DNA of 64,000 bases from Actinomucor elegans (lineage: Eukaryota; Mucoromycota; Mucoromycetes; Mucorales; Mucoraceae), in assembly GCA_026027325.1 (NCBI GenBank), contig JAMSLZ010000001.1, positions 4,931,974 through 4,995,973 on the forward strand, in the 5' to 3' direction. Each line of letters starts with the position of its first letter. Position 1 is the stretch's first letter. Shown one piece after another: positions 866 to 52,113 of the stretch. The notes beneath the pieces were generated by a model. It made no database searches. It was not told the origin of the DNA and worked only from the letters and a program-made list of their open reading frames with translations. Position numbers and translations under genes: made by a program.

Positions 866-1340
866 TTTTAATAAAGTAAATGAAATACTCAAACAAGGAA
901 TTATATATCATTTTCGACAGATCAGTTTTAACTGAAAAATATAAGATGGATAGATGGTTAAACTGAGGGTAAAAGGAATAAGACTTTGATCAACCCTTTT
1001 ATTAAAAGATGAGGGAAGCTTCATGGCAAAATACAATCTCCTTTTTATATCCATCAGTTCATGACGTAATCAAGGGTGCATTCAATTCACATCTATGAGT
1101 AACATCACCATTAGAGTTTAAGCCGTTTTAAAACTTGTCTTATAATTATATATGACTCGTAAGTGTATACAGGAGCAAGAGGTACTATATTGTATAGATA
1201 CAACTAGATCAATTACATTCTCAAATAAAACAGATGTGCATGATGATTATTTCAAACGCAGATTCTGATAGGAAAAAAAAAAAAAGGTTTGTTTCCCTCC
1301 AGGTGAAAATATGTTCCCTTTTGCCTTCACATTTATTTCA
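866..1340. other. Intergenic, no gene seen
   Basis: AT-rich spacer between the spliced gene and the tandem array. I see no open frame with coding character, no RNA gene and no clear terminal repeat. A run of 13 A lies at about 1,274-1,286. Confidence 0.6.
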
Positions 1341-4010
1341 GATGTTGCATTGTCAATATTGATGCAGTTAGGGAGTCTACTGGCGCGTATCACGTTCCAG
1401 TATTATGGTTCTTTGGAATCATCCCAAGTGAAAGTAATATTAAAATGTGCGCGTATTACGTTCACATGGTTTATTATGAGTAGCGTGAAACTGCATTTAC
1501 ATTATTATTGTCTTGAAAGAGGTAATGTAGATAAAAATTGCCATTTGAAAATTTCCAGGAATCTAATTCTCATTATACTCATTATAGATGTTGCATTGTC
1601 AATATTGATGCAGTTAGGGAGTCTACTGGCGCGTATCACGTTCCAGTATTATGGTTCTTTGGAATTATCCCAAGTGAAAATAGTATTAAAGTGTGCGCGT
1701 ATTACGTTCACATGGTTTATTATGAGTAGCGTGAAATTGCATTTACATTATTATTATTGTCTTGAAAGAGGTAATGAAGATAAAGATTGCCATTTGAAAA
1801 TTTCCAAGAATCTAATTCCCTTGCTATGCACTCATTTTTAATATTACATTGGCAAAGTTAATGTTGATGCAGTTAGGGAGTCTACTGGCGCGTATCACGT
1901 TCCAGTATTATGGTTCTTTGGAATTATCCCGAGTGAAAATAGTATTAAAGTGTGCGCGTATTACGTTCACATGGTTTATTATGAGTAGCGTGAAACTGCA
2001 TTTACATTATTATTATTGTCTTGAAAGAGGTAATGAAGATAAAAATTGCCATTTGAAAATTTCCAGGAATCTAATTCTCATTATACTCATTATAGATGTT
2101 GCATTGTCAATATTGATGCAGTTAGGGAGTCTACTGGCGCGTATCACGTTCCAGTATTATGGTTCTTTGGAATTATCCCAAGTGAAAATAGTATTAAAGT
2201 GTGCGCGTATTACGTTCACATGGTTTATTATGAGTAGCGTGAAATTGCATTTACATTATTATTATTGTCTTGAAAGAGGTAATGAAGATAAAGATTGCCA
2301 TTTGAAAATTTCCAAGAATCTAATTCCCTTGCTATGCACTCATTTTTAATATTACATTGGCAAAGTTAATGTTGATGCAGTTAGGGAGTCTACTGGCGCG
2401 TATCACGTTCCAGTATTATGGTTCTTTGGAATTATCCCGAGTGAAAATAGTATTAAAGTGTGCGCGTATTACGTTCACATGGTTTATTATGAGTAGCGTG
2501 AAACTGCATTTACATTATTATTATTGTCTTGAAAGAGGTAATGAAGATAAAAATTGCCATTTGAAAATTTCCAGGAATCTAATTCTCATTATACTCATTA
2601 TAGATGTTGCATTGTCAATATTGATGCAGTTAGGGAGTCTACTGGCGCGTATCACGTTCCAGTATTATGGTTCTTTGGAATCATCCCAAGTGAAAATAGT
2701 ATTAAAGTGTGCGCGTATTACGTTCACATGGTTTATTATGAGTAGCGTGAAACTGCATTTACATTATTATTGTCTTGAAAGAGGTAATGTAGATAAAGAT
2801 TGCCATTTGAAAATTTCCAGGAATCTAATTCTCATTATACTCATTATAGATGTTGCATTGTCAATATTGATGCAGTTAGGGAGTCTACTGGCGCGTATCA
2901 CGTTCCAGTATTATGGTTCTTTGGAATTATCCCAAGTGAAAATAGTATTAAAGTGTGCGCGTATTACGTTCACATGGTTTATTATTAGTAGCGTGAAACT
3001 GCATTTACATTATTATTGTCTTGAAAGAGGTAATGTAGATAAAAATTGCCATTTGAAAATTTCCAGGAATCTAATTCTCATTATACTCATTATAGATGTT
3101 GCATTGTCAATGTTGATGCAGTTAGGGAGTCTACTGGCGCGTATCACGTTCCAGTATTATGGTTCTTTGGAATTATCCCAAGTGAAAATAGTATTAAAGT
3201 GTGCGCGTATTACGTTCACATGGTTTATTATGAGTAGCGTGAAATTGCATTTACATTATTATTATTGTCTTGAAAGAGGTAATGAAGATAAAGATTGCCA
3301 TTTGAAAATTTCCAAGAATCTAATTCCCTTGCTATGCACTCATTTTTAATATTACATTGGCAAAGTTAATGTTGATGCAGTTAGGGAGTCTACTGGCGCG
3401 TATCACGTTCCAGTATTATGGTTCTTTGGAATTATCCCGAGTGAAAATAGTATTAAAGTGTGCGCGTATTACGTTCACATGGTTTATTATGAGTAGCGTG
3501 AAACTGCATTTACATTATTATTGTCTTGAAAGAGGTAATGAAGATAAAGATTGCCATTTGAAAATTTCCAAGAATCTAATTCCCTTGCTATGCACTCATT
3601 TTTAATATTACATTGGCAAAGTTAATGTTGATGCAGTTAGGGAGTCTACTGGCGCGTATCACGTTCCAGTATTATGGTTCTTTGGAATTATCCCGAGTGA
3701 AAATAGTATTAAAGTGTGCGCGTATTACGTTCACATGGTTTATTATGAGTAGCGTGAAACTGCATTTACATTATTATTGTCTTGAAAGAGGTAATGTAGA
3801 TAAAAATTGCCATTTGAAAATTTCCAGGAATCTAATTCTCATTATACTCATTATAGATGTTGCATTGTCAATATTGATGCAATTAGGGAGTCTACTGGCG
3901 CGTATCACGTTCCAGTATTATGGTTCTTTGGAATTATCCCAAGTGAAAGTAATATTAAAATGTGCGCGTATTACGTTCACATGGTTTATTATGAGTAGCG
4001 TAAAACTGTA
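1341..4010 (+). repeat. Tandem array, 11 units of 246-259 bp
   Basis: The phrase GATGCAGTTAGGGAGTCTAC (last copy GATGCAATTAGGG) recurs at 1361, 1607, 1866, 2115, 2374, 2623, 2869, 3115, 3374, 3630 and 3876. Spacings are 246, 259, 249, 259, 249, 246, 246, 259, 256 and 246. Two linker types join the units. Type a ends CTCATTATAGATGTTGCATTG; type b contains CTTGCTATGCACTC and GGCAAAGTTAATG. Remaining length change is one extra TTA triplet. Units are almost identical, so expansion or homogenisation is recent. The 246- and 249-bp units are multiples of three and create long open frames (330 aa from 2,357) that repeat one module and look like by-products. Each type-a linker resembles a short intron (GTAATG...TATAG), so the unit may derive from an exon-intron pair. 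Confidence 0.9.
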
Positions 4011-11681: not shown

Positions 11682-12563
11682 TTAATCCTTTAAAAACTTT
11701 TTCCATACGTTATACTCTCTATTTTTCTTACGCCATTGATATTCTTTTAAATACAATACTATATCTTTTTTATTTCTATTTCGTGGTATTATACTTTGCT
11801 TTAAGCCATTCCATGTGCCTTCAATTGTATTTGTATGCACACCTGTATTTGGATCTTTAAAATGCTTTGAATGATTTACAGTTAAATGTTTGTATCCTAT
11901 ATTTTTCAAGTTATTATACCCTTTCCATAAATCCGTATATATTGTTGTACCTTTTTTTACATATCTTTTTATAATTAAATCAATATTATCAACATTTCTT
12001 TCTTCAATGGGTAATAAAAACATTTTTTTGTTTTCATTTTTTATTTTATTTTTTAGCATACTTCTTTCGATACCACCAATTACCCAAGCACCTTCTACCT
12101 TATGCCCCTTATTATATTTTCTTTTTGCAATTTTACTTTCATCGATTTCTACAATTTTATTTCTACCTCCAATTTTAATATTTCTGTTACCTAACAATTG
12201 TTTATTTTTCAAGTATTTTCTGAATATTTTATTGTATGATGACACTGTATTTTTGCTAATTTGCAAACTTGATGCTATAAAGGAAGAAGGTGCTTTTCCA
12301 AGAAAAAGATATAATATGTGTAATTGAGTATTTAAAGGTAAAGTTAAATTATTAAAAATTGTTCCTTTCAATGGTGATATTGCTTTCCTACATTTATAAT
12401 ATCTACAAACATATAATTTTTTATTTAAGTTTAATTTAGTTTCATGTTCACATTTATTACACTTTATATGTTTATTAACGTAATCATTACTAATTAAATA
12501 TAATAGTGCTTCTTTTTCATCGTCGAATATTTTTTTTAAAGATTTATATGGTTCTATAAACAT
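11682..12563 (-). CDS. Merlin transposase (IS1595/ISXO2-like DD36E)
   Basis: I place the start at the ATG at 12561-12563 (MFIEPYKS, 293 aa), where the second Merlin copy also begins. The frame is open further upstream into the terminal repeat, with an ATG there (12,690), but that would lie inside the inverted repeat. A zinc ribbon (CNKC...CRYYKC) and a helix-turn-helix-like segment precede the catalytic core. Numbered from the start used here, the acids are D141 (EIDESK), D211 (IYTDLWKGY) and E248 (NTIEGTWNGLK), with 36 residues between the last two, as in Merlin/IS1016. No internal stop or frameshift is seen, so this is the better candidate for an active copy. Confidence 0.9.
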   Translation of the reverse strand: MFIEPYKSLKKIFDDEKEALLYLISNDYVNKHIKCNKCEHETKLNLNKKLYVCRYYKCRKAISPLKGTIFNNLTLPLNTQLHILYLFLGKAPSSFIASSLQISKNTVSSYNKIFRKYLKNKQLLGNRNIKIGGRNKIVEIDESKIAKRKYNKGHKVEGAWVIGGIERSMLKNKIKNENKKMFLLPIEERNVDNIDLIIKRYVKKGTTIYTDLWKGYNNLKNIGYKHLTVNHSKHFKDPNTGVHTNTIEGTWNGLKQSIIPRNRNKKDIVLYLKEYQWRKKNREYNVWKKFLKD

Positions 12564-13343
12564 CTGCAATTTTATTAAATCCTTTTTATTTTTAATTTTA
12601 ATTTGTAAAAAAAATTCAATTTTTTCATATAACAATAAAATTTGTGGTAGTAGGAGTTTCAATATGGACCTGAGAGTTCCTTTGGGATACATCCGTAAGA
12701 GAATACTGTACAGATAGAAAATCGTATAGATATCCTTATATATAGCTGCAGAAGTGTATAAAGCATTATTACCAAGAACCAGAATGTAAATGACTGTATT
12801 TGATTATGTTAAAATATCTTTATTTATATATCACTCTGAGCAAGAAGTAGACGCTAATTGATAAATACTATCTCTCACACCAAATATTACATTCAATACT
12901 ATTACCTTTGGATATATTGATCCCGACACTCCTCGCCGCTAATCTTGGTCCGCTCATTTGGTTATTATCCCTGGTCTTCTTTATACGCAGTCCAACCTTG
13001 TTCCTGGCAAATCGTAATATGAATTTAGAATCAAGTACCGATCGAGGAAAAGTATATAAGAGATGCGTTTTATCACCTTTGGACCAGGAATCAATTCTTG
13101 ATCTCTAATAAAAAACTATCCACAGTTTTAAAAGTATTTCTATCTTCCAAAATCTTTATCTACCACCTTTACAACAGACTGTATCGCTGTATAAGGTAAT
13201 CAATGATGCTTTAGTATGTATGTGCTACAGCTAGGGCGCACAGGCCTCTAGTCTGTCTGTACTTCAATTATGTGGCTATTTCACCACATCATCCTTAGAA
13301 CTATTAGCCAATAATCATTACAAGAAACACGCAGCATCATACT

Positions 13344-23076: not shown

Positions 23077-25512
23077 GAGCTACATTACATATCATTAATA
23101 ATTAATATATATATTATAATTATTTTCATATTATTAAATTAAAATTATATAGCTTTCTTTATTTATCAAGTTGTAAGTTGCTAAAAAACTTACGGCGTGC
23201 TTTTTAATCAATTTTAAAAGAAAAAAATTGTCGCACAACAGGGTTTCGATCTGGTGTGAAATATTATGAAAAAAAAAAGTTTAATTGTATTGAAAAGTAA
23301 TATAAAAGTTTAATCTTTATAAGTTTTGCATAATTATTGCAATTTCTTATTTTTACGTTAATTACCAAACTTTCAAAAATTACAATAAAAAAGTGTTAAA
23401 CAAAAAAAATATAATTACAAAAAACACTATTTAATTTAAAAACTAATTTTTATTTTTTTTTATTTTTAACGTTGCTCTTAGACATTGATAGAATCCCAAT
23501 AATTCTTTAGAATATCTTTTGTTTGAAAGTCACTTTCTTTAATCCAACTGTTTACTTGTTTTTTATAATTTCTCCATTTTACCTCATATTCATATTCATT
23601 ATTTATTTTTCTATGTTGTATTATATATTGTATCTCATATACATTTTTATCAGTACTAGTATTATTATCATCATTATCAATTTGCATTTTATTTTTAGTT
23701 AAGCTGATTTTAAAATTATTATCAGATAAAAGTTTATTTAGAAGATCATCCTGTAAACTTTTCATATTCATTATATTTTCTTTTTTATATACCGCCTTTA
23801 TTGATTTAGTTTCGATATTAAAATCCTTAATAGTATCAAAAAAATCAAAATCTTTTTCCATCCATAGTTTATAATAAGATTTTTCTTCTATATTATTATT
23901 TTCTACAAAGTTTTTGATATTAAATAAAACTAATGCTAATTTAATCTGAATGTTATATGTTTTTTCTTTTGTAATTCTTGCATTGGCTTTGTAGCTAAAT
24001 CTTTTGAATATATTTGAAAATTTTGCAAAAAAAGTTTCAATGGTACTTCTATATGATCCTAATTGTTTATTAAAATTTAATTCATCAACATCTAAATCAA
24101 TATTTTTTCTTTTTTTATTGGAAAACAAAAGTTATTTTCTGTAATATGTAATCCTACATTATTATATTTTTTTAAAATTTCATCTAATACATTTTCATAC
24201 AATCCATCATAGCATAAACAATCTGTTAGTTTAAAAAATTTCATTAAATTTATATTATTAATAAACATATTATCGTCATTATTAAATTTACACGGTAATG
24301 ATTCTGAAACATAGATGATATATCCTGCTGAATCTATAATAAATTGGGTGTTTAATGCATTTTTCTTTAATTTATAAGAATATAAATCTTTTTTATTTAA
24401 ATCAATATCTTCAATTACTATTCTATTATGTCTTCCATCTAAAAGTAATGTACAATGTTCAAAATTTTTAGGATTGTATAATTTACTATATAATAATCTA
24501 GTAATGCTGTTGCTAAAACAATAAAACATCGTATTATTAACCCAATTTTCTAAAAAATCTATATTATCAATAAAAACAGATTTATAAATTCTATAAAAAG
24601 AATCATTCTCATCATAAATTTTCATATCATTAATGGAACAACCATCTACTAATAATTTTAAAATCAAAATTCCTTTTTCTACATTATATACTGGTGATGG
24701 CATTTTAATTTTACTACAAATTTCTGTTAAAAATACAAATATAGGAATTGCACCTAATAGTTCATATAATTCTTTTTTTATATTTTGAATGTTAATAAAA
24801 TTTCCTATTTTACTTCTATGATATTGTTTTTCAATATTAGATTTATATGTATTATCTAAAAATTTCCAATAATTTGTTTTAATCTCTTCATATTCATTTT
24901 CTAATAGTTCCTCTATTTCAATTGTCATAAGATGTTCTTATTTTTATTTATATAATAATTCAATTTTTTAGAAAAAAGTAATTGAGTTTGAATTAATGTT
25001 ACAGAAATGATTATAATTATAATTATTTTAATATTAAACATTCAAACATTTGGCAAAAAAAAAATAAAAATTGATACTATGAATCAAAAACAAAGAGCAA
25101 TTTTTATATAAGAGCTACATTACATATCATTAATAATTAATATATATATTATAATTATTTTCATATTATTAAATTAAAATTATATAGCTTTCTTTATTTA
25201 TCAAGTTGTAAGTTGCTAAAAAACTTACGGCGTGCTTTTTAATCAATTTTAAAAGAAAAAAATTGTCGCACAACAGGGTTTCGATCTGGTGTGAAATATT
25301 ATGAAAAAAAAAAGTTTAATTGTATTGAAAAGTAATATAAAAGTTTAATCTTTATAAGTTTTGCATAATTATTGCAATTTCTTATTTTTACGTTAATTAC
25401 CAAACTTTCAAAAATTACAATAAAAAAGTGTTAAACAAAAAAAATATAATTACAAAAAACACTATTTAATTTAAAAACTAATTTTTATTTTTTTTTATTT
25501 TTAACGTTGCTC
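23077..25512 (-). mobile_element. Transposon A, copy 1: DDE-chromodomain element with direct terminal repeats
   Basis: 2,436 bp. Direct terminal repeats 23077-23477 and 25112-25512 (401 bp each) flank a 1,634-bp core. Each repeat begins GAGCTACATT and ends AACGTTGCTC as written, so its ends are a short imperfect inverted repeat (GAGCWACRTT). Target duplication ATT lies at 23074-23076 and 25513-25515. The transposase stop codon (23478-23480) directly abuts the repeat. This is an LTR-like layout around a DNA transposase. Confidence 0.93.
23478..24928 (-). CDS. Transposon A transposase with C-terminal chromodomain, -1 frameshift
   Basis: Two overlapping frames, 24092-24928 (278 aa) and 23478-24128, join by a -1 shift into about 483 aa. 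The first has catalytic D164 (LLLDGRHNR) and D241 (CYDGLYEN). The second has E31 of its frame (YRSTIETFF, near residue 298 of the fusion) and the NIQIKLALVLFNIKN segment typical of DDE_Tnp_4. A chromodomain occupies about the last 53 residues (VYEIQYIIQHR...YEVKWRNY...NSWIKESDF). The heptamer A AAA AAA (24116-24110 on the minus strand) sits in the zero frame at the overlap. The 3-bp target duplication and motifs place it near PIF/Harbinger/IS5. Transposon B's homologue reads through this point in one frame. So the shift is either programmed or a shared lesion. Confidence 0.82.
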
Positions 25513-29954: not shown

Positions 29955-31457
29955 ATTAGGAATAGAATATGAAATAGATTAGAATAAAAAATAAATGTTA
30001 GATAATTGATTAGACCGAGAAACAGAAAGACAATAAAAAAAAAAAGAAAAAAGTTAAAAAAGAAACAGGCATAAATTCAAGACATTAAGATTATAAGTAA
30101 GGATTATGAATGGAGATAATGTTTGAAGCATGATTAGGAGCAACGTTAAAAATAAAAAAAAATAAAAATTAGTTTTTAAATTAAATAGTGTTTTTTGTAA
30201 TTATATTTTTTTTTGTTTAACACTTTTTTATTGTAATTTTTGAAAGTTTGGTAATTAACGTAAAAATAAGAAATTGCAATAATTATGCAAAACTTATAAA
30301 GATTAAACTTTTATATTACTTTTCAATACAATTAAACTTTTTTTTTTCATAATATTTCACACCAGATCGAAACCCTGTTGTGCGACAATTTTTTTCTTTT
30401 AAAATTGATTAAAAAGCACGCCGTAAGTTTTTTAGCAACTTACAACTTGATAAATAAAGAAAGCTATATAATTTTAATTTAATAATATGAAAATAATTAT
30501 AATATATATATTAATTATTAATGGTATGTAATGTAGCTCTAGAACATAGATAGATTTAGGATAGAATGATAATAAAAAAAATGATTTAAGATTAGTACTA
30601 AGAAGATAATTAAAATAAAAACAAAGAAAAAAGATAAGATAAACAAGAAAACTAAGGAGATAGTTAATAAAAAAAAAAATAAAAAATAAAAAAATAAAAT
30701 AAAAATTAGGGATAAATTAAGAAATATACGAAAAAATATAGTTAGAGATAAGAATGGATTAGAATATAATTAAGATTAAAAAATAAAATAAAAAAAAATA
30801 GATATGGATAGGATTACGATTAATAATATGGTTAAAACTAGAGATAGAATTAGGATTAATGATAAAAATTAAAATGAAGGACAATAAATGGGATAGACAT
30901 AAAAACAGCATAGGATTAGAAGTAAAATCAATGTTAATATTTATATAAGAATATAACAGGAAAAATTAATAATAACAAAAACAAGCCAGGAACACAATAT
31001 AGAAAAAAAAAAAAAAAGAATAGGATTAGGTATAAATTGAAGAACAAGAATATAGTATAAAAGCTTAATTAATATTAGAAACAGGGATAAAAACAAAAAG
31101 TACAATAAGGATTAAGATTTAAGAGCAGCGTTAATATTAAGATATGAGATAAGTTAGGATTCACATAGTAACATGAGGGATAAGGATAGAGATAAATTAG
31201 GACTATATAAAGGAACGATATTAGGGTAATAAAAATAAGGGATAGAAAATTAAGATAAAATATAGGATAAAGGTCATGATGAGAACAAGGGATATGATCA
31301 AGATTAGGATTTGAATTAAAATTAGACTAGATCAGGATAAGAAATAATAAGATTCAAATGAAAGAATAGATTAAGAACAAAGTTAAAGATAAGATAGGGT
31401 TAATATTAAAATTAGAATTATGAATATAATTAGGATTAAGACAAAATCATGTTAGAG
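29955..31457. repeat. Degenerate telomere-like A/G-rich DNA
   Basis: Outside the solo A repeat, the plus strand is strongly A/G-rich with recurring words GGATTA, GATTAAG, AGGATTAG and TTAGGGATA. It looks like decayed TTAGGG-type DNA in the same orientation as the terminal telomere. No gene supported. Confidence 0.6.
30138..30539 (+). repeat. Solo A terminal repeat (TSD TAG)
   Basis: 402 bp from GAGCAACGTT to ATGTAGCTC, complete at both ends, flanked by TAG at 30135-30137 and 30540-30542. It carries no coding sequence. It is either the product of recombination between the two direct repeats of a full element or an independently mobile MITE. Confidence 0.92.
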
Positions 31458-32480: not shown

Positions 32481-34816
32481 GACGGATATCTACAATTAAT
32501 ATATCTTTTAAATCTATTGTATATGTCCTATTTTTTTTTAATATATCCATATATTTTATAATTTATAACTTTTTTTCATGAATTAAAATTATTATTAAGT
32601 ATAATAAACATTATCAAGAAGGCAACTGTTCCATTTTGCATGAAAAAGCAATATTATATTTATGCTTTCTCCTAATATACGTACCAAATTTATATGAAAC
32701 AAGATGTCCGTCTTCTATAACATTTTAAATTAGTTACTTACTATTCCAATATATATTAATACAATCAAAACTATTAAATTTACTGTAATGTATCCATGAA
32801 TTATCCTCATCACTGTAGTTTTGCCATTTCACAAGGTAATAACTATCTTCGACTATTAACCCTTTATGATCCAAAATAGTTTCAATTTCATAACTTTCAT
32901 TATTATCTATATCTATTTCCAAGTCCATTTTCTCATTATTATAAATATTATTATTTTTAAAATGAGCAATATTTGATAATTCTAATCCTAAAAATTGTTG
33001 CTGTAATAATTTCATTTTATCTAAATTGTTTATTCTTTCATTTAACTTTGGAAGTGATTTATAATTTTCATTATTATTCAAAATATCATTTTGTATTTAA
33101 AATCAAAGCTATCATTAATCCAATATGAATGAAAATCACTATGTTCTATATTGTTTAGTTTAATATATTTTTTAAATTAAAAAGGACACATGCAATTTTT
33201 AGTTGAATATTATATATATTTATATTAGTAGTTAAAAAAGGTTTTTTGTTATTTAATCTTTTAAAGATACATCCCAAATCTGAGAAAGTTTTTTCCATTT
33301 TAGACCGAAAACTTCCAAATTGATCGTTATAATTTATTTCAATTTCATTTAAGTTTATATTTTTATCTTTTCTGATAGGATATACGAAGTTATAGTCATT
33401 TAGATCAGAACTATTTATTATATTATCTACGTATAGGCTATATCCTCCATCTAATGCAATACAATCCATCAAATTTAGTTTATTTTCAATATTCATATTT
33501 ATAAGCATAGATCCATCATTATTAGTACTACATGGTTGACTGTCTGATACAAATAATACCATACCATTTGTATCTATTGCAACTTGTGTTCTAAACCCAT
33601 TTTTTTTAAGTTTGTAACTATAATATATGGATTTATCTTCTGCACCATATACCATACCTCTTTTATCATGGCCGTCTAAATGTATTGTTACTTGATTAAA
33701 CAAATCTGGATTCTCTATCATTCCATTTAAAAGTCTAATTTTTATATTTGAAAACATGTTTTGTAAAGAAAAACTTAAAATCTTATTTAATTTTAACATT
33801 CTATCTGATGAATAAAATTGTCTGTATATTTGATGAAAAGTACTTTTTGATATATAATCATCCATATCTTCAATTGATATATTCTCTACTATAAAATATA
33901 ATATCAATAAGCCTTTTTCTATATTATTATATGGTCCTCTATAATCTCTATCTCCAAATAATATAACTAGGAAGAAATAAACAGGTATTATTCCTAACTT
34001 TTCTAATAAAATCTTTTTAATTTCTTTGATCTTTTAATAGATATAATCTTTTTAGTGTGATATTTTTTTTGTTCAATCTCTGGCCAACCATAATTTAAAA
34101 ATTTCCAATAATCATTTGTTAGAATCTGATACTCCATTAATAAAGTATCCTTAACATTATTAATATTATCCATTTGTTCTTTTTTATATTGAGATAAATT
34201 CAATTTTTTATAACTTAAAATAAAATTAATAATAATATATATACATTATTATGTTTTAGAAAACATTTTTTATTTTGAAAAGTTTGAAGTAATTCTAAAA
34301 TTTATTAATTTTATATTTTGCTTAGTCAGCAAAATTGTAAAATCAATTATTTTTTTGAACTTTTTATTAATAGACAGATTTATAAATATTTTGTGTTACA
34401 CAAAATATAATAAATCCTAATTGTTTTAAAGAAATAGAAAATATAAAAAGTTCACAAATTGTGAACATTTTTAATTTTCATGGAATGACAAACAAATTGA
34501 TAATTTGAAAAGAATTGTAGTGTTAAGCTGATTTTATAATTCAGAATTTTATAGCAACAGAAACATTTCTCTATGGTTATAGTAGACGGATATCTACAAT
34601 TAATATATCTTTTAAATCTATTGTATATGTCCTATTTTTTTTTAATATATCCATATATTTTATAATTTATAACTTTTTTTCATGAATTAAAATTATTATT
34701 AAGTATAATAAACATTATCAAGAAGGCAACTGTTCCATTTTGCATGAAAAAGCAATATTATATTTATGCTTTCTCCTAATATACGTACCAAATTTATATG
34801 AAACAAGATGTCCGTC
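32481..34816 (-). mobile_element. Transposon B: second DDE-chromodomain element with direct terminal repeats
   Basis: 2,336 bp. Direct terminal repeats 32481-32712 and 34585-34816 (232 bp each, near identical) start GACGGATATC and end AGATGTCCGTC, a short inverted repeat. Target duplication ATT at 32478-32480 and 34817-34819. The repeat is unrelated in sequence to that of transposon A, but the architecture is the same. It is inserted in telomere-like DNA. Confidence 0.92.
32734..34203 (-). pseudogene. Transposon B transposase-chromodomain, broken into three frames
   Basis: N-terminal piece 34003-34203 (TNDYWKFLNYG, as in A: KTNYWKFLDNT). Catalytic piece 33155-33907 has D78 (HLDGHDKR), D153 (ALDGGYS) and E205 (FRSKMEKTF). 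C-terminal piece 32734-33081 holds a chromodomain (YEIETILDH...YYLVKWQNYSDEDNSWI). Stop codons or frameshifts separate the pieces, so this copy is dead. The region equivalent to A's frameshift (YPIRKDKNINLNE) reads in one frame. Protein similarity to A is clear but distant, so A and B are old sister families. Confidence 0.85.
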
Positions 34817-37340: not shown

Positions 37341-40300
37341 TGTTGTAAAGGTGGTAGATAAAGATTTTGGAAGATAGAAATACTTTTAAAACTGTGGATA
37401 GTTTTTTATTAGAGATCAAGAATTGATTAACTGGTCAAAAGGTGATAAAACGCATCTCTTATATACTTTTTCTCGGTCGGTACTTGATTCTAAATTCATA
37501 TTACGATTTGCCAGGAACAAGGTTGGACTGCGTATAAAGAAGACCAGGGATAATAACCAAATGAGCGGACCAAGATTAGCGGCGAGGAGTGTCGGGATCA
37601 ATATATCCAAAGGTAATAGTATTGAATGTAATATTTGGTGTGAGAGATAGTATTTATCAATTAGCGTCTACTTGCTCAGAGTGATATATAAATAAAGATA
37701 TTTTAACATAATCAAATACAGTCATTTACATTCTGGTTCTTGGTAATAATGCTTTATACACTTCTGCAGCTATATATAAGGATATCTATACGATTTTCTA
37801 TCTGTACAGTATTCTCTTATTAATATAATTATGAGCGTTTACAACATTATCCTCCACCAGAATCAAACAAACTTGTATTGATTCGGCAAGTGCGTCAGTT
37901 CCACCAAATAGTACATTCATGCGGCTGAGTTTTGATTAACACGCTCAGGTATACCTCCTTTTACGCACCAATTCAGGGTCTTTTCTTGCATCGTGGCTTT
38001 TCTTGGTTCTTGTTTCATAACTTGCCTACTTATTCTATCTTTCTTTTCTTGTTTGAACGTCTATTCAGTATTCTCTCTTCTCTACTCGTAGTGGCTGCAA
38101 TATTTGCTCTTTTGTTTTTCGACATCTCGATCGCTACATTTGACATCTCATTCCCATTGCATTTAGGAATCTTGGAAGTTCCAACTTTTTTGCGTCTGTT
38201 AGGTTCAGAGTTTTGAATTGACTGTTCGACTCTAGTTTGCTCTAAACGTCGTAATTCTCTTTGCTTATTCCAGTACCGTTGAATGATAGTTGGATCGGTG
38301 AAATCACTTGCTTTTTGCCAAGTATTTTCTTTCTCAGAATAACCTTTCCACTTAATCAAGTATTCTCGATGACCTTCTTCACCTCGATGATCACGGATAC
38401 CTTCGACTTCGTAGTATTCTTCTTCGATACTAGACTCATCCAGGGTAACTACTTTCAATTCCGACGGTACATAGTTTCGGGATAATAATTCATTCTGTTC
38501 ATCCTTTAGTTCATACGATCCACCAGTATTTCTTCGAACAACAGTGTAAGGTCCCTCATAAATCGGAGCTAACTTACTAGATCGATTCTGTAATCTGATC
38601 ATGACATGCGTTCCAACTGGAATGTCGACAAGAACACTCTTTTGATTGAACTTTTTGTTATATTCCTCATTTATCTTCTGAGTTCTTTCGAGGATGGCTG
38701 GGAATACGATCTTATCCATGTAATCTACGCGTTCTTCCAACTCTCGCATGGTCATAGACTCAATGGGTAGTTTGAACTTCTTCTCGTTCCCGTAGTCATC
38801 AGGTAAGTTGACTCTACGTGCAAACATCAAGGAGAAGGGAGAACTCATAGTTTTTGCTTTAATGTGTCGGTTCATGCAGAGCTGTATGATAGGAAGATAA
38901 TACGCCCAACTATGACTGTCTGACTTCATCATTTTTCTTAACGTGTTAGTTGCGGTACGAACTGCATTTTCCGCTGCTCCATTTGCTCGAGGATGATATG
39001 GCGTAGTGTATCTTCTATCAATTCCTAGGTTCTTCGAAATACTGTTCATCACAGCATTCTTGAACTCTAGACCATTATCAGACTGGCAAATACGTGGAAC
39101 ACCAAAATCACCATAGACTTTGACCAACTCTTTTGCAACAGTATCGGATTGTTTGTTCTTCAGAGGTCTGAGAATAACGAATTTCGAACAAATATCTGTT
39201 ATAACCAACATGTAAACATATCCTTCTTCAGTTACGTCAAAAGGTCCAGCCAAGTCGATAGCAATATGATCAAATGGTCGGTTGGCTACAACATTAGATA
39301 ATGGGTGATAACCTCTCTTACTGATGTTGTGCTTTTGACATTCAACACACGAACTAACAATGTCTTTTGCTTCTGCGTAGATATTCGCCCAATGGAGACC
39401 TTGTGAATGTAAATCTCGCACAATTGCTTGCGATCCAAAGTGTCCAAATGCATGCGCTTCTTTCAACAGAGCATCTCTCTCTTCTTCAGGAGGAGTCATA
39501 TAGTCAGTCAGCTCATCTTTTCTTTCAACTAGTTTAGTCGCGAGTACGTTAATCGTTTTATCTCGGCTAAATCGCTTTTTTCTAATGATGGCTTTCTTTT
39601 TAGGGCTTCGTCTGATGATTTTGCTCGTAACACTATCCTCCACCAGTTTGTTTTCATCTTCTAAAGGTGAATACAAACGGCTCAGAATATCAGGCAATTT
39701 GTTCAATATACCGGGGATGTGCACTACATCAAAATCAAAATCCAGAAGAGTCTCGATCCATCCAATTAACATGGGATTTGCGATCTTTTGCGTATGTAAG
39801 TATACTAGTGCCTTGTGATCTGTAAATACAGTGAACTTTTTGCCCCATATATACTTGCGAAACTTCAGTAATGCTAACACGACTGCATACAATTCTCTTT
39901 TAGTAGTGCTCCAACGGCGTTGTGAAGGTGACAAGGAGCTCGATACAAATCCTATGTAAAGATCTTGGCCGGCCTCATTCTTTTGAAACAACACTGCCGC
40001 GACACCATAAAGTGATGCGTCTGTAGCTACGTAAAACTGTTTTGACAAATCCGGATAATGCAGCATCATCTTCGACTGCAAAATCTCTTTGATAGTTTCA
40101 AAGCTCTTAGTGTGACGATCGGTCCACAGCTCTTCCACATTCTCTGCATTCACTAAACTGGTGAGTGGTTCTGCTACTCTGGAAATCATCGGAACGAATT
40201 CTCTCAGGTAATTGACCAAACCCATAAATTGCTGGATGTGTTTCTTATTTTTATTTGGAAGTGGCCACTTTGAAACATTGGTAAGTTTTGATTGATCCAC

Positions 40301-43300
40301 ACGAACTCCTGAAGCGTCCACTACAAATCCCAACATACGAACTGAATGTTGAAACCATGAACACTTGGATTCTTTCAGGATTAAATTTGCGGAATTTAAT
40401 CTGTCAATCACAAACTTTACATCTTTTGCATGCTGTTCGATACTTTCACTGGCAACAATACAGTCATCCACGAAGTTCTGAACGCAATCAATACCTTCAA
40501 ACAAGGTTGCCATGACCTTTTGAAATTGCGAGGTTAGCATTTTCACTCCAAAGCACGCTTTTTGAAAGGAAAAGCCATTGCCATTATAAGTAAACGATAA
40601 CTTGTGTACATCCTCGGGTGCCACTTTGAATCGATGATATGCATTCGACAAATCCAAAGTTGTAAACACTTTTTTACCGGCCAAGTTATCAAAGATATCC
40701 TTAACCAAAGGTACGGGAAAATTGAATGTTGGAGGTAGAATTTGATTCAACGATCTCACATCTAAACACGCTCTATGGCTCACAATCTCACCATCTTTGT
40801 TACGTTTAGGAACAAGCAGTAATGGACTGTTGAATGACGTGTTTACTCGGGATCGAATGATTGTACCTGTTTCCAACCATTCTTTTATTTGCTTATCGAG
40901 AACTGGTCTTAATGCATAAGGGATGGGGTATTGACGTCTATACGCCGTTGCACCCTCTTTCGTAGGTAATCGAACAATGGATTCAGGCAAAGGACATGAA
41001 GATGTTATGGGTATGCTCTGATTAATCTCTAGTGATTCTTTAATTATACTCATGAACTCTGCTCTTTGCTCAGGCGTACCAGCAGGCGAATTGTCAGGTT
41101 CATGTTTTCTTTCACGTTCAATGTTCAAGTTTTCAAAAATAGCTTCATCACTCAAGGCAGCGTCAGAATGTGCATGATCATCTTTGATGCGAAAAGCCAC
41201 TCCAGTTAATCCGATATTCATTTTGGGAAGAATATCTGTGCCAAGAAGAATATCAAACTCGAATCCGTCGTTAAAGTTCATTACTTCAAATGAGTGTTTG
41301 AACTTAATGCCATTTGCATACTTTATTTCCAAAGGATCGGTGATACCAATTCTCTTTGCAGTATTTTGATGAGACAAGAAATTATAAGAACCAGGTAATT
41401 TATGTACTTTATTTATATGAAGTTTATTCTTCAAAGAAGACAAACTAACAAAGCTACAACTACTTCCTGTATCTACGCGTCCCAGGAGACGTTCAGACTC
41501 TACAATCAACGGTGTACATAAATTAAATGCGTCATTAGCCTTTAATTTGTCACTCTTCTTGTTCTCATTCAGGTACTTACATTGATAGCTCTGATTCTCA
41601 ATCTCGGAGTCGGCCATCTCCAAGTCCTCTTGAACTTGCTGCTCAATTGACTTCTCACTCGAGGAAGCCGCAGGCATCACAGCCAAGACAGTACTGCTAC
41701 TACTGCTTTCAGCAGCACCACAACGATGACCAGGACGCCATGGAGACACACCACAAGTCCAACACTCTTTACCCTTCGCCTTCTTCACAGAAGGAGGGCG
41801 TTCAGCTCTTCTCTTAGCGAGAAAACAATCCTTGGTGTCATGGGTCGCATTGTTACCATGATGGATGCACGAAAAGGGTTTCGCCACCTTACTCGCCTTT
41901 TGCACCCGACGAGCTGCATTCTTGTGATGATGGTGATAGGGGGCCTTTTCTTTGCGTCGCTCAACAACAGGCGCACCAGGAAGAAGAGAAACAGCCTCAT
42001 TATACGACGTATGGTCGTCACCAAGAATATCACGACCAATCTGTGCGATTTGATCGACAGTGTATTCAGCATTCTCACCAGAAGATCCAGCCTTCACTGA
42101 ATTCATTGCAACTCTGATCAGCGTCTGAACAGGTTTAGTCAGCGAGGCCAAAAAACGATCAGCTACTCTAGGACACTCTCTAGGTAGGCCTGCATCAAAC
42201 ATTGCTGTTTGAAAACGCTTAGCATAGTCGCCCACCGACTCATTGTTTTCCATTACCATGGTAAACACAAGGTCAGTATATCTTCTCAACACAAGGGAAG
42301 AACCGTGCTGCTTCTTAAACTCTCTACGAGCATCTGCCCATAGGGTACAACCTCTACTCAGCTCATCTTTCACCCATGCTTTATCGCCATGGGGAAGGCA
42401 AAGGGGTAAGAAGTTCTTCCACACCTCATCAATGGACATGGAAGAAGACTCAACTACATCCTCAAATTCTCTCAAAAAATGCTCAACAGACTCGAAGGCT
42501 TCGTAACCTGGAAAAGGTTTGACAGCCGAGGTCAAGAGTTGGAACTTGGGCAAGTCGCGACGATTCAATGTCAAACCAGTAGGTGGCTTAACACGATCAA
42601 CCTCACCGATCAATGAACTGCACTCTTGGATCTCACGGAGCATCCTCTTGGAGCGTTCAAGGGCCAACAAGGCTTCATCAGCCGCTACGTCATCTCTGAC
42701 TACACGAGCACGACTAAACGCTTGAAGGTATCGGGTAATATCTGCACGGAGCCCGGCGATATTTGTGTCAATCAGTTGTGGGTCAGTCATGTCAGCAACA
42801 GCATGCTCAGCCGACTCAGACAACAAAGAACTAGCACCAGGAGACTTGATAAACTCATCAAGGTTGCTTGACAAGGTCGATTCATCAAACATGGGGGTGT
42901 CAGGGTTAACACCACAGTTGGCAGAAGAAGAACCAGAAACGTTGTTGGAAGCCATATCGATAAAAGTAAGGAAAATAGGACAGTAATTAAAAGTAAAAAA
43001 TGTTGTAAAGGTGGTAGATAAAGATTTTGGAAGATAGAAATACTTTTAAAACTGTGGATAGTTTTTTATTAGAGATCAAGAATTGATTAACTGGTCAAAA
43101 GGTGATAAAACGCATCTCTTATATACTTTTTCTCGGTCGGTACTTGATTCTAAATTCATATTACGATTTGCCAGGAACAAGGTTGGACTGCGTATAAAGA
43201 AGACCAGGGATAATAACCAAATGAGCGGACCAAGATTAGCGGCGAGGAGTGTCGGGATCAATATATCCAAAGGTAATAGTATTGAATGTAATATTTGGTG

Positions 43301-46756: not shown

Positions 46757-47873
46757 CAGGGTAGTACCCTGAGGGCTAGGGCTAGGGTTTGCACAAGGCA
46801 TACCTCAGGTTTATAACACTCGTAGGCTGAGAGAGCTAATCACACCACATGCGAAAGGGTAGTACCCTGAGGGCTAGGGCTAGGGTTTGCACAAGGCATA
46901 CCTCAGGTTTATAACACTCGTAGGCTGAGAGAGCTAATCACACCACATGCGAAAGGGTAGTACCCTGAGGGCTAGGGCTAGGGTTTGCACAAGGCATACC
47001 TCAGGTTTATAACACTCGTAGGCTGAGAGAGCTAATCACACCACATGCGAAAGGGTAGTACCCTGAGGGCTAGGGCTAGGGTTTGCACAAGGCATACCTC
47101 AGGTTTATAACACTCGTAGGCTGAGAGAGCTAATCACACCACATGCGAAAGGGTAGTACCCTGAGGGCTAGGGCTAGGGTTTGCACAAGGCATACCTCAG
47201 GTTTATAACACTCGTAAGCTGAGAGAGCTAATCACACCACATGAGAAAGGGTAGTACCCTGAGGGCTAGGGCTAGGGTTTGCACAAGGCATACCTCAGGT
47301 TTATAACACTCGTAGGCTGAGAGAGCTAATCACACCACATGCGAAAGGGTAGTACCCTGAGGGCTAGGGCTAGGGTTTGCACAAGGCATACCTCAGGTTT
47401 ATAACACTCGTAGGCTGAGAGAGCTAATCACACCACATGCGAAAGGGTAGTACCCTGAGGGCTAGGGCTAGGGTTTGCACAAGGCATACCTCAGGTTTAT
47501 AACACTCGTAAGCTGAGAGAGCTAATCACACCACATGAGAAAGGGTAGTACCCTGAGGGCTAGGGCTAGGGTTTGCACAAGGCATACCTCTGGTTTATAA
47601 CACTCGTAAGCTGAGAGAGCTAATCACACCACATGAGAAAGGGTAGTACCCTGAGGGCTAGGGCTAGGGTTTGCACAAGGCATACCTCTGGTTTATAACA
47701 CTCGTAAGCTGAGAGAGCTAATCACACCACATGAGAAAGGGTAGTACCCTGAGGGCTAGGGCTAGGGTTTGCACAAGGCATACCTCTGGTTTATAACACT
47801 CGTAAGCTGAGAGAGCTAATCACACCACATGAGAAAGGGTAGTACCCTGAGGGCTAGGGCTAGGGTTTGCACA
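46757..47873 (+). repeat. 98-bp subtelomeric satellite, left part
   Basis: GTAGTACCCTGAGG recurs every 98 bp from 46761 to 47839 (12 starts). Each unit carries GGGCTAGGGCTAGGGTTT, variants of TTAGGG. Sub-variants (GCGAAA or GAGAAA; CGTAGG or CGTAAG; CTCAGG or CTCTGG) occur in runs, indicating local homogenisation. The array is interrupted by transposon A copy 2 and resumes in phase. Confidence 0.97.
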
Positions 47874-50307
47874 GAGCAACGTTAAAAATAAAAAAAAATA
47901 AAAATTAGTTTTTAAATTAAATAGTGTTTTTTGTAATTATATTTTTTTTGTTTAACACTTTTTTATTGTAATTTTTGAAAGTTTGGTAATTAACGTAAAA
48001 ATAAGAAATTGCAATAATTATGCAAAACTTATAAAGATTAAACTTTTATATTACTTTTCAATACAATTAAACTTTTTTTTTCATAATATTTCACACCAGA
48101 TCGAAACCCTGTTGTGCGACAATTTTTTTCTTTTAAAATTGATTAAAAAGCACGTCGTAAGTTTTTTAGCAACTTACAACTTGATAAATAAAGAAAACTA
48201 TATAATTTTAATTTAATAATATAAAAATAATTATAATATATATATTAATTATTAATGGTATGTAATGTAGCTCTTATATAAAAATTGCTCTTTGTTTTTG
48301 ATTCATAGTATCAATTTTTATTTTATTTTTTGCCAAATGTTTGAATGTTTAATATTAAAATAATTATAATTATAATCATTTCTGTAACATTAATTCAAAC
48401 TCAATTACTTTTTTCTAAAAAATTGAATTATTATATAAATAAAAATAAGAACATCTTATGACAATTGAAATAGAGGAACTATTAGAAAATGAATATGAAG
48501 AGATTAAAACAAATTATTGGAAATTTTTAGATAATACATATAATCTAATATTGAAAAACAATATCATAGAAGTAAAATAGGAAATTTTATTAACATTCAA
48601 AATATAAAAAAAGAATTATATGAACTATTAGGTGCAATTCCTATATTTGTATTTTTAACAGAAATTTGTAGTAAAATTAAAATGCCATCACCAGTATATA
48701 ATGTAGAAAAAGGAATTTTGATTTTAAAATTATTAGTAGATGGTTGTTCCATTAATGATATGAAAATTTATGATGAGAATGATTCTTTTTATAGAATTTA
48801 TAAATCTGTTTTTATTGATAATATAGATTTTTTAGAAAATTGGGTTAATAATACGATGTTTTATTGTTTTAGCAACAGCATTACTAGATTATTATATAGT
48901 AAATTATACAATCCTAAAAATTTTGAACATTGTACATTACTTTTAGATGGAAGACATAATAGAATAGTAATTGAAGATATTGATTTAAATAAAAAAGATT
49001 TATATTCTTATAAATTAAAGAAAAATGCATTAAACACCCAATTTATTATAGATTCAGCAGGATATATCATCTATGTTTCAGAATCATTACCATGTAAATT
49101 TAATAATGACGATAATATGTTTATTAATAATATAAATTTAATGAAATTTTTTAAACTGACAGATTGTTTATGCTATGATGGATTATATGAAAATGTATTA
49201 GATGAAATTTTAAAAAAATATAATAATGTAGGATTACATATTACAGAAAATAACTTTTGTTTTCCAATAAAAAAGAAAAAAATATTGATTTAGATGTTGA
49301 TGAATTAAATTTTAATAAACAATTAGGATCATATAGAAGTACCATTGAAACTTTTTTTGCAAAATTTTCAAATATATTCAAAAGATTTAGCTACAAAGCC
49401 AATGCAAGAATTACAAAAGAAAAAACATATAACATTCAGATTAAATTAGCATTAGTTTTATTTAATATCAAAAACTTTGTAGAAAAAAATAATATAGAAG
49501 AAAAATCTTATTATAAACTATGGATGGAAAAAGATTTTGATTTTTTTGATACTATTAAGGATTTTAATATCGAAACTAAATCAATAAAGGCGGTATATAA
49601 AAAAGAAAATATAATGAATATGAAAAGTTTACAGGATGATCTTCTAAATAAACTTTTATCTGATAATAATTTTAAAATCAGCTTAACTAAAAATAAAATG
49701 CAAATTGATAATGATGATAATAATACTAGTACTGATAAAAATGTATATGAGATACAATATATAATACAACATAGAAAAATAAATAATGAATATGAATATG
49801 AGGTAAAATGGAGAAATTATAAAAAACAAGTAAACAGTTGGATTAAAGAAAGTGACTTTCAAACAAAAGATATTCTAAAGAATTATTGGGATTCTATCAA
49901 TGTCTAAGAGCAACGTTAAAAATAAAAAAAAATAAAAATTAGTTTTTAAATTAAATAGTGTTTTTTGTAATTATATTTTTTTTTGTTTAACACTTTTTTA
50001 TTGTAATTTTTGAAAGTTTGGTAATTAACGTAAAAATAAGAAATTGCAATAATTATGCAAAACTTATAAAGATTAAACTTTTATATTACTTTTCAATACA
50101 ATTAAACTTTTTTTTTCATAATATTTCACACCAGATCGAAACCCTGTTGTGCGACAATTTTTTTCTTTTAAAATTGATTAAAAAGCACGTCGTAAGTTTT
50201 TTAGCAACTTACAACTTGATAAATAAAGAAAACTATATAATTTTAATTTAATAATATAAAATAATTATAATATATATATTAATTATTAATGGTATGTAAT
50301 GTAGCTC
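47874..50307 (+). mobile_element. Transposon A, copy 2
   Basis: 2,434 bp. Direct terminal repeats 47874-48273 and 49908-50307 (400 bp each) around a 1,634-bp core. Target duplication ACA at 47871-47873 and 50308-50310; removing the element and one ACA restores the 98-bp satellite perfectly, which proves the boundaries. Opposite orientation to copy 1. Confidence 0.97.
48458..49907 (+). pseudogene. Transposon A transposase-chromodomain, copy 2
   Basis: Nearly identical to copy 1 but one A is missing near 48,542 (ACATATAATC against ACATATAAATC in copy 1), which breaks the N-terminal frame. The long frame then restarts only at an internal ATG at 48,682. The catalytic acids and chromodomain are kept. 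It has the same -1 overlap; here the zero-frame heptamer is A AAA AAG (49269-49275). The stop TAA at 49905-49907 directly abuts the terminal repeat. Confidence 0.85.
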
Positions 50308-50990
50308 ACAAGGCATACCTCTGGTTTATAACACTCGTAAGCTGAGAGAGCTAATCACACCACATGAGAAAGGGTAGTACCCTGAGGGCTAGGGCTAGGG
50401 TTTGCACAAGGCATACCTCAGGTTTATAACACTCGTAAGCTGAGAGAGCTAATCACACCACATGAGAAAGGGTAGTACCCTGAGGGCTAGGGCTAGGGTT
50501 TGCACAAGGCATACCTCTGGTTTATAACACTCGTAAGCTGAGAGAGCTAATCACACCACATGAGAAAGGGTAGTACCCTGAGGGCTAGGGCTAGGGTTTG
50601 CACAAGGCATACCTCAGGTTTATAACACTCGTAAGCTGAGAGAGCTAATCACACCACATGAGAAAGGGTAGTACCCTGAGGGCTAGGGCTAGGGTTTGCA
50701 CAAGGCATACCTCAGGTTTATAACACTCGTAAGCTGAGAGAGCTAATCACACCACATGAGAAAGGGTAGTACCCTGAGGGCTAGGGCTAGGGTTTGCACA
50801 AGGCATACCTCAGGTTTATAACACTCGTAAGCTGAGAGAGCTAATCACACCACATGAGAAAGGGTAGTACCCTGAGGGCTAGGGCTAGGGTTTGCACAAG
50901 GCATACCTCAGGTTTATAACACTCGTAGGCTGAGAGAGCTAATCACACCACATGCGAAAGGGTTTACCTTCAGAGCTAGGGTTAGGGCTA
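50308..50990 (+). repeat. 98-bp subtelomeric satellite, right part
   Basis: Starts in phase after the ACA duplication. GTAGTACCCTGAGG at 50374, 50472, 50570, 50668, 50766 and 50864, then a variant end (GGGTTTACCTTCAGAGC). With the left part this makes about 18 units. Confidence 0.96.
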
Positions 50991-51233: not shown

Positions 51234-52113
51234 ATGTTTATAGAACCATACAAATCTTTGAAAAAAATATTTGATGATGAGAAGGAAGCACTATTGTATT
51301 TAATTGAAAACAACTATGTTAACCATTATGAAAAGTGTTTAAAATGTAACCATGATATTAAATTAAATATAAATAAAAAATTATATGTTTGCAGATTTTA
51401 TAAATGTAGAAAAGCTATATCACCTTTAAAAGGTACAATATTTAATAAATTAACATTATCATTAAATATACAATTACATATACTATATTATTTTCTTGGA
51501 AAAGTGCCATGTTCATTTACTGCATCAACATTAGGAATATCAAAGAATACTGTGTCATCTTATAATAAATTATTTAGAAAACATTTAAAAAATAAGCAAT
51601 TATTAAGTAATAGAAATATTAAAATTGGGGGTAGAAATAAAATTGTAGAAGTAGATGAAAGTAAAATAGCTAAAAGAAAATATAATAGAGGTCATAGAGT
51701 AGAAGGTGCATGGATTATTGGAGGTGTAGAAAGAAGTATGTTAAAAAATAAAATAAAAACGAAAATAAAAAAACTTTTTTTGTCCCTATTAAAGAAAGAA
51801 ATATTGATAATATAGATTTAATTATTAAAAAATATGTAAAAAAAGGAACCACAATATATACAGATTTATGGAAAGGATACAATAATTTAAAGAATATAGG
51901 ATATAAACATATGACTGTAAATCATTCCAAAAATTTTAAAGATCCAATAACAGGTGTACATACTAATACTATTGAAGGTACTTGGAATGGATTAAAACAG
52001 AGTATAATACCCAGACATAGAAACAAAAAGATATATTATTGTTTTTAAAAGAATATCAATGGAGGAAAAAAAATAGGGAATATAATTTATGGAAAAAGTT
52101 TTTGACAGATTAA
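51234..52113 (+). pseudogene. Merlin transposase, copy 2
   Basis: Starts MFIEPYKSLKKIF at 51234. The zinc ribbon and first catalytic Asp (VEVDESK) are in the first frame, which ends at 51815 after a frameshift in an A/T run (about 51,760-51,785). The rest continues in another frame with IYTDLWKGY and NTIEGTWNGLK, and a second one-base loss near 52,030 (AAACAAAAAGATATA). Not functional. Confidence 0.88.

Follow-up and report, generated by a model that had tools for sequence, protein, structure and literature searches.

A transposase element of Actinomucor elegans bounded by long direct repeats in the manner of LTR elements

The window analysed here is a stretch of 64,000 nucleotides of the fungus Actinomucor elegans (contig JAMSLZ010000001.1, positions 4,931,974 to 4,995,973), which represents one end of that contig (C1, 4.93-5.00 Mb) in an assembly of 36.5 Mb and 27 contigs. 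At positions 23077..25512, on the minus strand, it carries the first copy of a DNA transposon family that we named F0, in which a transposase gene lies between two long direct repeats as in a long terminal repeat (LTR) element. The left 401-bp repeat (long terminal direct repeat, LTDR; 23077..23477, plus strand) and the identical right one (25112..25512, plus strand) enclose a minus-strand internal region (INT; 23478..25111) of 1634 bp, whose first base on the plus strand is T and whose last base is A, and the whole element is flanked by the target site duplication (TSD) ATT/ATT. Each F0 repeat is bounded by short inverted ends, GAGCTACATT at its start and AACGTTGCTC at its end, and is itself built like a mini-transposon. 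A second copy (47874..50307, plus strand; locus L056), which belongs to another F0 subfamily, repeats this layout between ACA/ACA. It lies inside a 98-bp satellite containing GGGCTAGGGCTAGGG, the insertion target seen in its flanks (window 47600-50600), and joining these flanks reproduced the neighbouring satellite units (100% over 117 bp), so that the empty site was restored. In all of this, from the coordinates and lengths of repeats and core to both TSDs and the restored satellite, a preliminary description of the locus proved exact.

The transposase gene of copy 1 is read from the minus strand and its frame is broken, the 5' part spanning 24092..24928 and the 3' part, with the end of the DDE_Tnp_4 match and a chromodomain, 23478..24131. 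The frame is split in both window copies, and 11 copies elsewhere carry the gene as one open frame of 486 amino acids (aa) from stop to stop. Pfam returned for copy 1 two DDE_Tnp_4 (PF13359) matches at 19 and 17.8 bits, under the curated cut-off of 24.8, and a Chromo match above its curated cut-off. PF13359 was matched by 12 of 12 families of the lineage at an E value of 0.01 or better (the L060 family above cut-off), no other transposase family matched more than two of the 12, and the NCBIfam IS5 model gave a weak match, far below cut-off, for L060 and none for two others. The N-terminal portion of the transposase, used as a query, gave at least 139 matches of 32-100% identity in the same genome. 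The lineage is one of DDE_Tnp_4/chromodomain transposases, with relatives in Mucoromycota. We take PF13359 to be the Harbinger-type Pfam domain; a Harbinger-type structure was listed neither by Foldseek nor by VIA-align, from which we draw nothing. The F0 INT has 1635 bp and the gene 1452 bp, which leaves about 180 bp spare, and the downstream repeat follows directly on the stop codon. INT held the transposase frame only, with no reverse transcriptase frame, and in the other families no second open reading frame (ORF) was present in INT among the up to three longest ORFs of at least 150 aa per locus.

F0 is represented in the genome by 20 full copies. When the repeat's outer end was searched for, 95 matches were obtained, 40 of them in the full copies and 55 unpaired at full-copy spacing; the unpaired ends include a truncated copy, a piece at a contig end and nine two-mismatch variants, mostly near contig ends. 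An identical 3-bp TSD was found in 18 of the 20 full copies, the exceptions being L041 and L054 (for the latter a 4-bp TSD, AATA, would fit), and in 19 of 21 solo repeats with distinct and readable flanks (exceptions L036 and L082). These 21 solos were picked by likeness to copy 1 or, in three cases, as end variants, and so do not sample the 55 at random. A solo repeat also occurs in the window (30138..30539, minus strand; L035), with the TSD TAG on the plus strand (CTA on the other) and haplotype CCCG. Locus L080 is a truncated repeat, and an extra solo beside L049 was excluded from the full-copy comparison. A full copy and a solo at one site were not encountered among the 39 F0 flank pairs compared. 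The F0 copies L040 and L041, both located near the start of a contig, have a common right flank over 200 bp and different left flanks, a pattern that points to exchange between copies or chromosome ends.

Flanks were joined computationally for 51 sites with a matching TSD (18 F0 copies, 18 solos and 15 others) and compared against all DNA read, a small fraction of the genome; unmatched sites are uninformative rather than negative. Sixteen of the 51 joined sites matched an uninterrupted relative without gaps, at 98% or more and over at least 113 of 117 bases. Among them were an L061-family element lying within a transposase gene of the L060 family and L073 (100%), a tandem dimer (repeat-INT-repeat-INT-repeat) whose outer flanks are AGT/AGT and whose inner junctions are those of INT.

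With respect to substitutions, the left and right repeats of each copy stay in step. Only two substitutions, both in L057, were counted across the 20 left-right pairs of F0, whereas random re-pairing of lefts and rights gave a mean of 42, and none of 100,000 shuffles was as low as the observed value. The full copies form two subfamilies of ten, which differ at four sites in the left repeat, at the same four sites in the right repeat and at four other sites in INT. No site distinguished left from right repeats in F0, and in none of the 20 copies did the two repeats belong to different subfamilies at the four diagnostic sites. When one pair was compared in each of ten families, nine showed no substitution (F0 being represented by copy L041) and L078 showed one in 261. 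The repeat sequence changes over time, but it does so as a pair. Since the subfamily changes are present in both repeats, the pair has been renewed or converted in an LTR-like fashion, though no reverse transcriptase is encoded. Full units between 3-bp TSDs, unit-free sites and repeats kept alike are all observed.

The survey of the layout covered the surroundings of copies from 13 transposase families that could be told apart, all within the same genome; no relatives with DNA context were found in the viral and genome contigs searched, so the layout was checkable there alone. Long direct repeats with short inverted ends were present in ten of the 13 families (F0, L059, L061, L062, L063, L065, L066, L069, L071 and L078), at lengths across families of about 220-402 bp. 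The repeat sequences are unrelated between families, with short matches only, though the transposases are clearly homologous. Outside F0, all 15 copies of repeat-bearing families that were read at both ends had a 3-bp TSD. For L059, 98 outer ends were counted as 37 INT-linked pairs and 25 unpaired ends, and for L061 a manual count gave 61 outer ends, with 19 pairs and 23 unpaired. In the L060 family the units are 282 bp long, have inverted ends of about 67 bp and form an inverted pair; in ten of the 11 unit-bearing families the units are direct. L064, a family seen also at L068, carries terminal inverted repeats (TIRs) about 200 bp long, and neither of its copies has a clear TSD. L070, about 2.15 kb in length, is plain and lacks long repeats, and its two copies have the TSDs ATA and TTG (junctions read by eye). 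INT starts with T in all 11 unit-bearing families and ends with A in ten, compared with T in 12 and A in 11 of 39 F0 insertions at the same positions of the outer junctions; inner and outer junctions look different, with statistics that are overstated, the unit-bearing families being related. In a tree of the surveyed families and 13 outside relatives, chosen from 120 listed, eight of the direct-repeat families formed a supported clade (99/97), with L069 and L061 outside it.

These results bear on a case that the preliminary description had named as refuting its proposal, namely that a transposase gene was inserted by chance between two miniature inverted-repeat transposable elements (MITEs); the resulting unit would then have been recently amplified. 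A single repeat is indeed MITE-like, with its short inverted ends and TSD, but ten families with unrelated repeats have the layout, it is common to the supported eight-family clade, and the units are direct in ten of 11 families. We consider a chance MITE pair to be refuted by the survey and scarcely credible. The check in independent families that had been suggested was thereby carried out within one genome, and a transposase element with LTR-like ends and 3-bp TSDs turned out to describe ten of the 13 families.

Alike terminal direct repeats and solos with a TSD would also be expected of an LTR-retrotransposon-like cycle, with an RNA intermediate and a reverse transcriptase borrowed from resident gypsy-type elements, and putative gypsy-type polyprotein frames do lie in the same window. 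This explanation is already contradicted and very improbable: besides the lack of a reverse transcriptase frame in INT, the repeats begin with GA or GG, not TG, in all 11 unit-bearing families, INT begins with TGG in the direction of the gene in one of the 11 (L066), the stop codon of F0 abuts the downstream repeat and leaves no place for a polypurine tract, and every element carries a DDE transposase of its own as well as a 3-bp TSD.

We consider it probable that the elements are composite-like class II transposons of the form repeat-gene-repeat, moved as a unit by their own transposase. At insertion, the chromodomain DDE transposase would pair the outermost left and right ends. The mobile form may pass through a circle with one repeat (repeat plus INT), and integration of this circle would copy the repeat and generate a renewed pair, in the way envisaged for the pseudo-compound transposons of the IS26 type in bacteria; the same route would give solos, dimers and the direct orientation as by-products. 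Renewal by integration of a one-repeat circle is our tentative first choice, falling somewhat short of an even chance. It is placed ahead because direct and identical repeats follow from it automatically, and because such a route has been put forward for elements of the IS26 type. Close behind comes ordinary recombination between the repeats, or gene conversion, as the process that keeps them alike, with a lower but still appreciable probability.

In its strict form, this alternative holds that the elements are plain cut-and-paste composites, whose repeats are alike solely through gene conversion and unequal crossing-over, with no special transposition step. Close direct repeats convert readily, unequal crossing-over is expected to yield a dimer and many solos, and the flanks of L040 and L041 mean that copies or chromosome ends do recombine. 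However, none of the 20 F0 copies combined repeats of both subfamilies, as judged by the four diagnostic sites, and the persistence of both repeats with intact inner ends throughout the eight-family clade is left unexplained. We regard it as the less likely account, albeit one with a considerable claim.

Several observations weigh against a composite moved by its own transposase and renewed through a one-repeat circle. No circle or replicative product was seen in the assembled DNA, and recombination of direct repeats 1.6 kb apart would equally yield homogenised repeats, dimers and solos. Binding of the transposase to the repeat ends is a prediction, and at an E value of 0.001 or better Foldseek matched nothing but the chromodomain. 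Insertions and deletions in the length of A/T runs averaged 1.45 within pairs versus 1.51 between copies, and because these lengths differ within pairs the in-step claim is limited to substitutions. The units of L060 are inverted, which one-repeat integration would not yield, and the orientation counts are not independent because eight of the ten direct families constitute one clade. On the tree, clustering of the direct label did not exceed that in shuffles (500 of 500 were as low), there being only three rows without direct repeats. Finally, mobility in this lineage does not depend on direct repeats, because L064 has long TIRs and L070 is plain.

The preliminary description had further suggested that either end of each repeat can serve as a transposase site. 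In line with this, a single repeat may also move alone as a nonautonomous transposon, many solos then being MITE-like insertions and not scars of recombination. The TSDs of 19 of the 21 solos fit such mobility, which is argued in part for KolobokP solos in the available text of PMC9587614. The solos have haplotypes TCTA, TCTG, CCCG and TCCG, some of them one-step neighbours of the full-copy haplotype TCCG, and CCCG occurs in seven of the 21 solos and in none of the 20 full copies, a hint in favour of the use of either end. On the other hand, full copies with CCCG may simply have been lost, the manner in which the solos were picked biases the sample, and none of the five incomplete or odd copies read had lost a single repeat cleanly: in the L059 family, an L069-family element adjoins the broken INT of L074, L075 and L076 run into other sequence and L077 has a mutated end, and L086 of the L061 family is truncated within its repeat. 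As solos may also come from recombination, the use of either end could not be maintained as it was worded; independent movement of single repeats is possible, though we lean slightly against it.

Among the other features of the window is a full element of the L061 family (32481..34816, minus strand; TSD ATT), whose 232-bp direct repeats (32481..32712 and 34585..34816, both minus strand) are identical. Two putative gypsy-type polyprotein frames (38030-42955 and 57686-62611), about 20 kb apart and with identical translations of 1641 aa, both end in an apparent chromodomain. Open frames at 1311-3349 are built of tandem units of about 80 aa (ILMQLGSLLARITFQYYGSLE...), and frames at 11682-12692 and 51234-51815 resemble a small transposase of another kind, with CxxC motifs near the N-terminus; a frame like these was also seen in L079, where it adjoins an L061-family element. 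A search of the window against Rfam gave no match. Outside the window, a sequence with TIRs of about 195 bp and a 194-aa ORF (L064 1-1205) adjoins the long-TIR transposase element, and part of it recurs on the other side of the transposase element in L068 (2837-3339); these neighbours possibly form one larger, two-part mobile unit.

Among known systems for comparison is the PHIS superfamily, which in the available text of PMC4482050 comprises PIF/Harbinger, ISL2EU, Spy, Pangu and Nuwa, with group-specific TSD rules (TWA, AT, none, ANT, CWG, TNA) and a second ORF with Myb/SANT or YqaJ that is absent in Spy. Our elements resemble that account in the PF13359 domain, in short TIRs starting with G and in a 3-bp TSD, as in most PHIS groups, and differ in having a single gene with a chromodomain, long direct repeats and TSDs that obey none of the group rules. 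Among 50 TSDs, TWA was found in two, ANT in 14, TNA in three and CWG in one. The F0 INT has no room for a Myb/SANT or YqaJ ORF, and none was present among the longest INT ORFs shown for the other families. The transposase domain points tentatively to the PHIS superfamily. With such TSDs and no space in F0 for the customary second gene, the elements are not plain PIF/Harbinger, the type to which the preliminary description compared them. Membership in PIF/Harbinger was considered and not adopted, as the TSDs do not fit and there was no reference tree.

With LTR retrotransposons the elements share terminal direct repeats that are alike within a copy, and solos, but they differ in lacking a reverse transcriptase and TG..CA ends and in having a DDE_Tnp_4 transposase. 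The bacterial IS6/IS26 pseudo-compound transposons carry, according to the available text of PMC7986276, a passenger flanked on both sides by directly oriented copies of a mobile unit that encodes the transposase, and a one-repeat circle with replicative integration is proposed there for IS26-type elements. A passenger between direct units, the outer TSD and the direct orientation in most families are found here too. In contrast, the transposase of our elements is the passenger in INT and is not within the repeated unit. The flanking units, always direct in the IS26 account, are direct here in ten of 11 unit-bearing families and inverted in L060. A eukaryotic counterpart of IS26, in which a DDE_Tnp_4 transposase would carry out replicative integration of a one-repeat circle and create identical repeats and a 3-bp TSD at birth, independently of KolobokP, is conceivable but unlikely.

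The closest architecture is that of KolobokP. As far as the available text of Kojima and Bao (2022; PMC9587614) goes, KolobokP occurs in seven animal phyla, encodes a Kolobok transposase and a His-Me nuclease (a homing endonuclease, which some KolobokP lack), has repeats of about 450 or 660 bp and is unlike any other DNA transposon, with the endonuclease invoked for multimers and upkeep. The same arrangement LTDR-INT-LTDR, repeats with their own short inverted ends, a transposase inside INT, and solos and multimers with an outer TSD (here 19 of 21 solos and the one dimer, L073) are common to both. Differences from that account are the DDE_Tnp_4 and chromodomain transposase, the fungal host, repeats of about 220-402 bp, and relatives with inverted units, long TIRs or a plain structure within the lineage. 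The motif C/DxxH between the second D and the last E, given there as the mark of Kolobok-type transposases, is not conserved here, since no column between D231 and E289 had H in six or more of 12 families. The spare 180 bp or so of F0 could not accommodate a His-Me nuclease, and none was present in the longest INT ORFs shown for the other families, ORFs below 150 aa not having been searched. Given the different transposase and the absence of a visible nuclease gene, the elements are not members of KolobokP, although the architecture is of the same kind. With KolobokP preceding it, the claim of a distinct DNA transposon class was too strong, and long direct repeats cannot be kept as the mark of reverse-transcribing elements, as had been assumed; identical terminal direct repeats are no proof of reverse transcription. 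Besides KolobokP, no second report of the layout was found in the literature searched, which did not cover Repbase and most subscription papers. A second lineage with another transposase and no room for an endonuclease means that a DDE transposase may be all that the layout needs, and the occurrence together of direct, inverted, long-TIR and plain relatives makes the step from a plain transposon to an LTR-like composite traceable. Collectively, these comparisons indicate that an LTR-like layout of a DNA transposon was apparently reached here independently of KolobokP, as a second case; its seemingly twofold origin hints at a common mechanism by which the ends are renewed.
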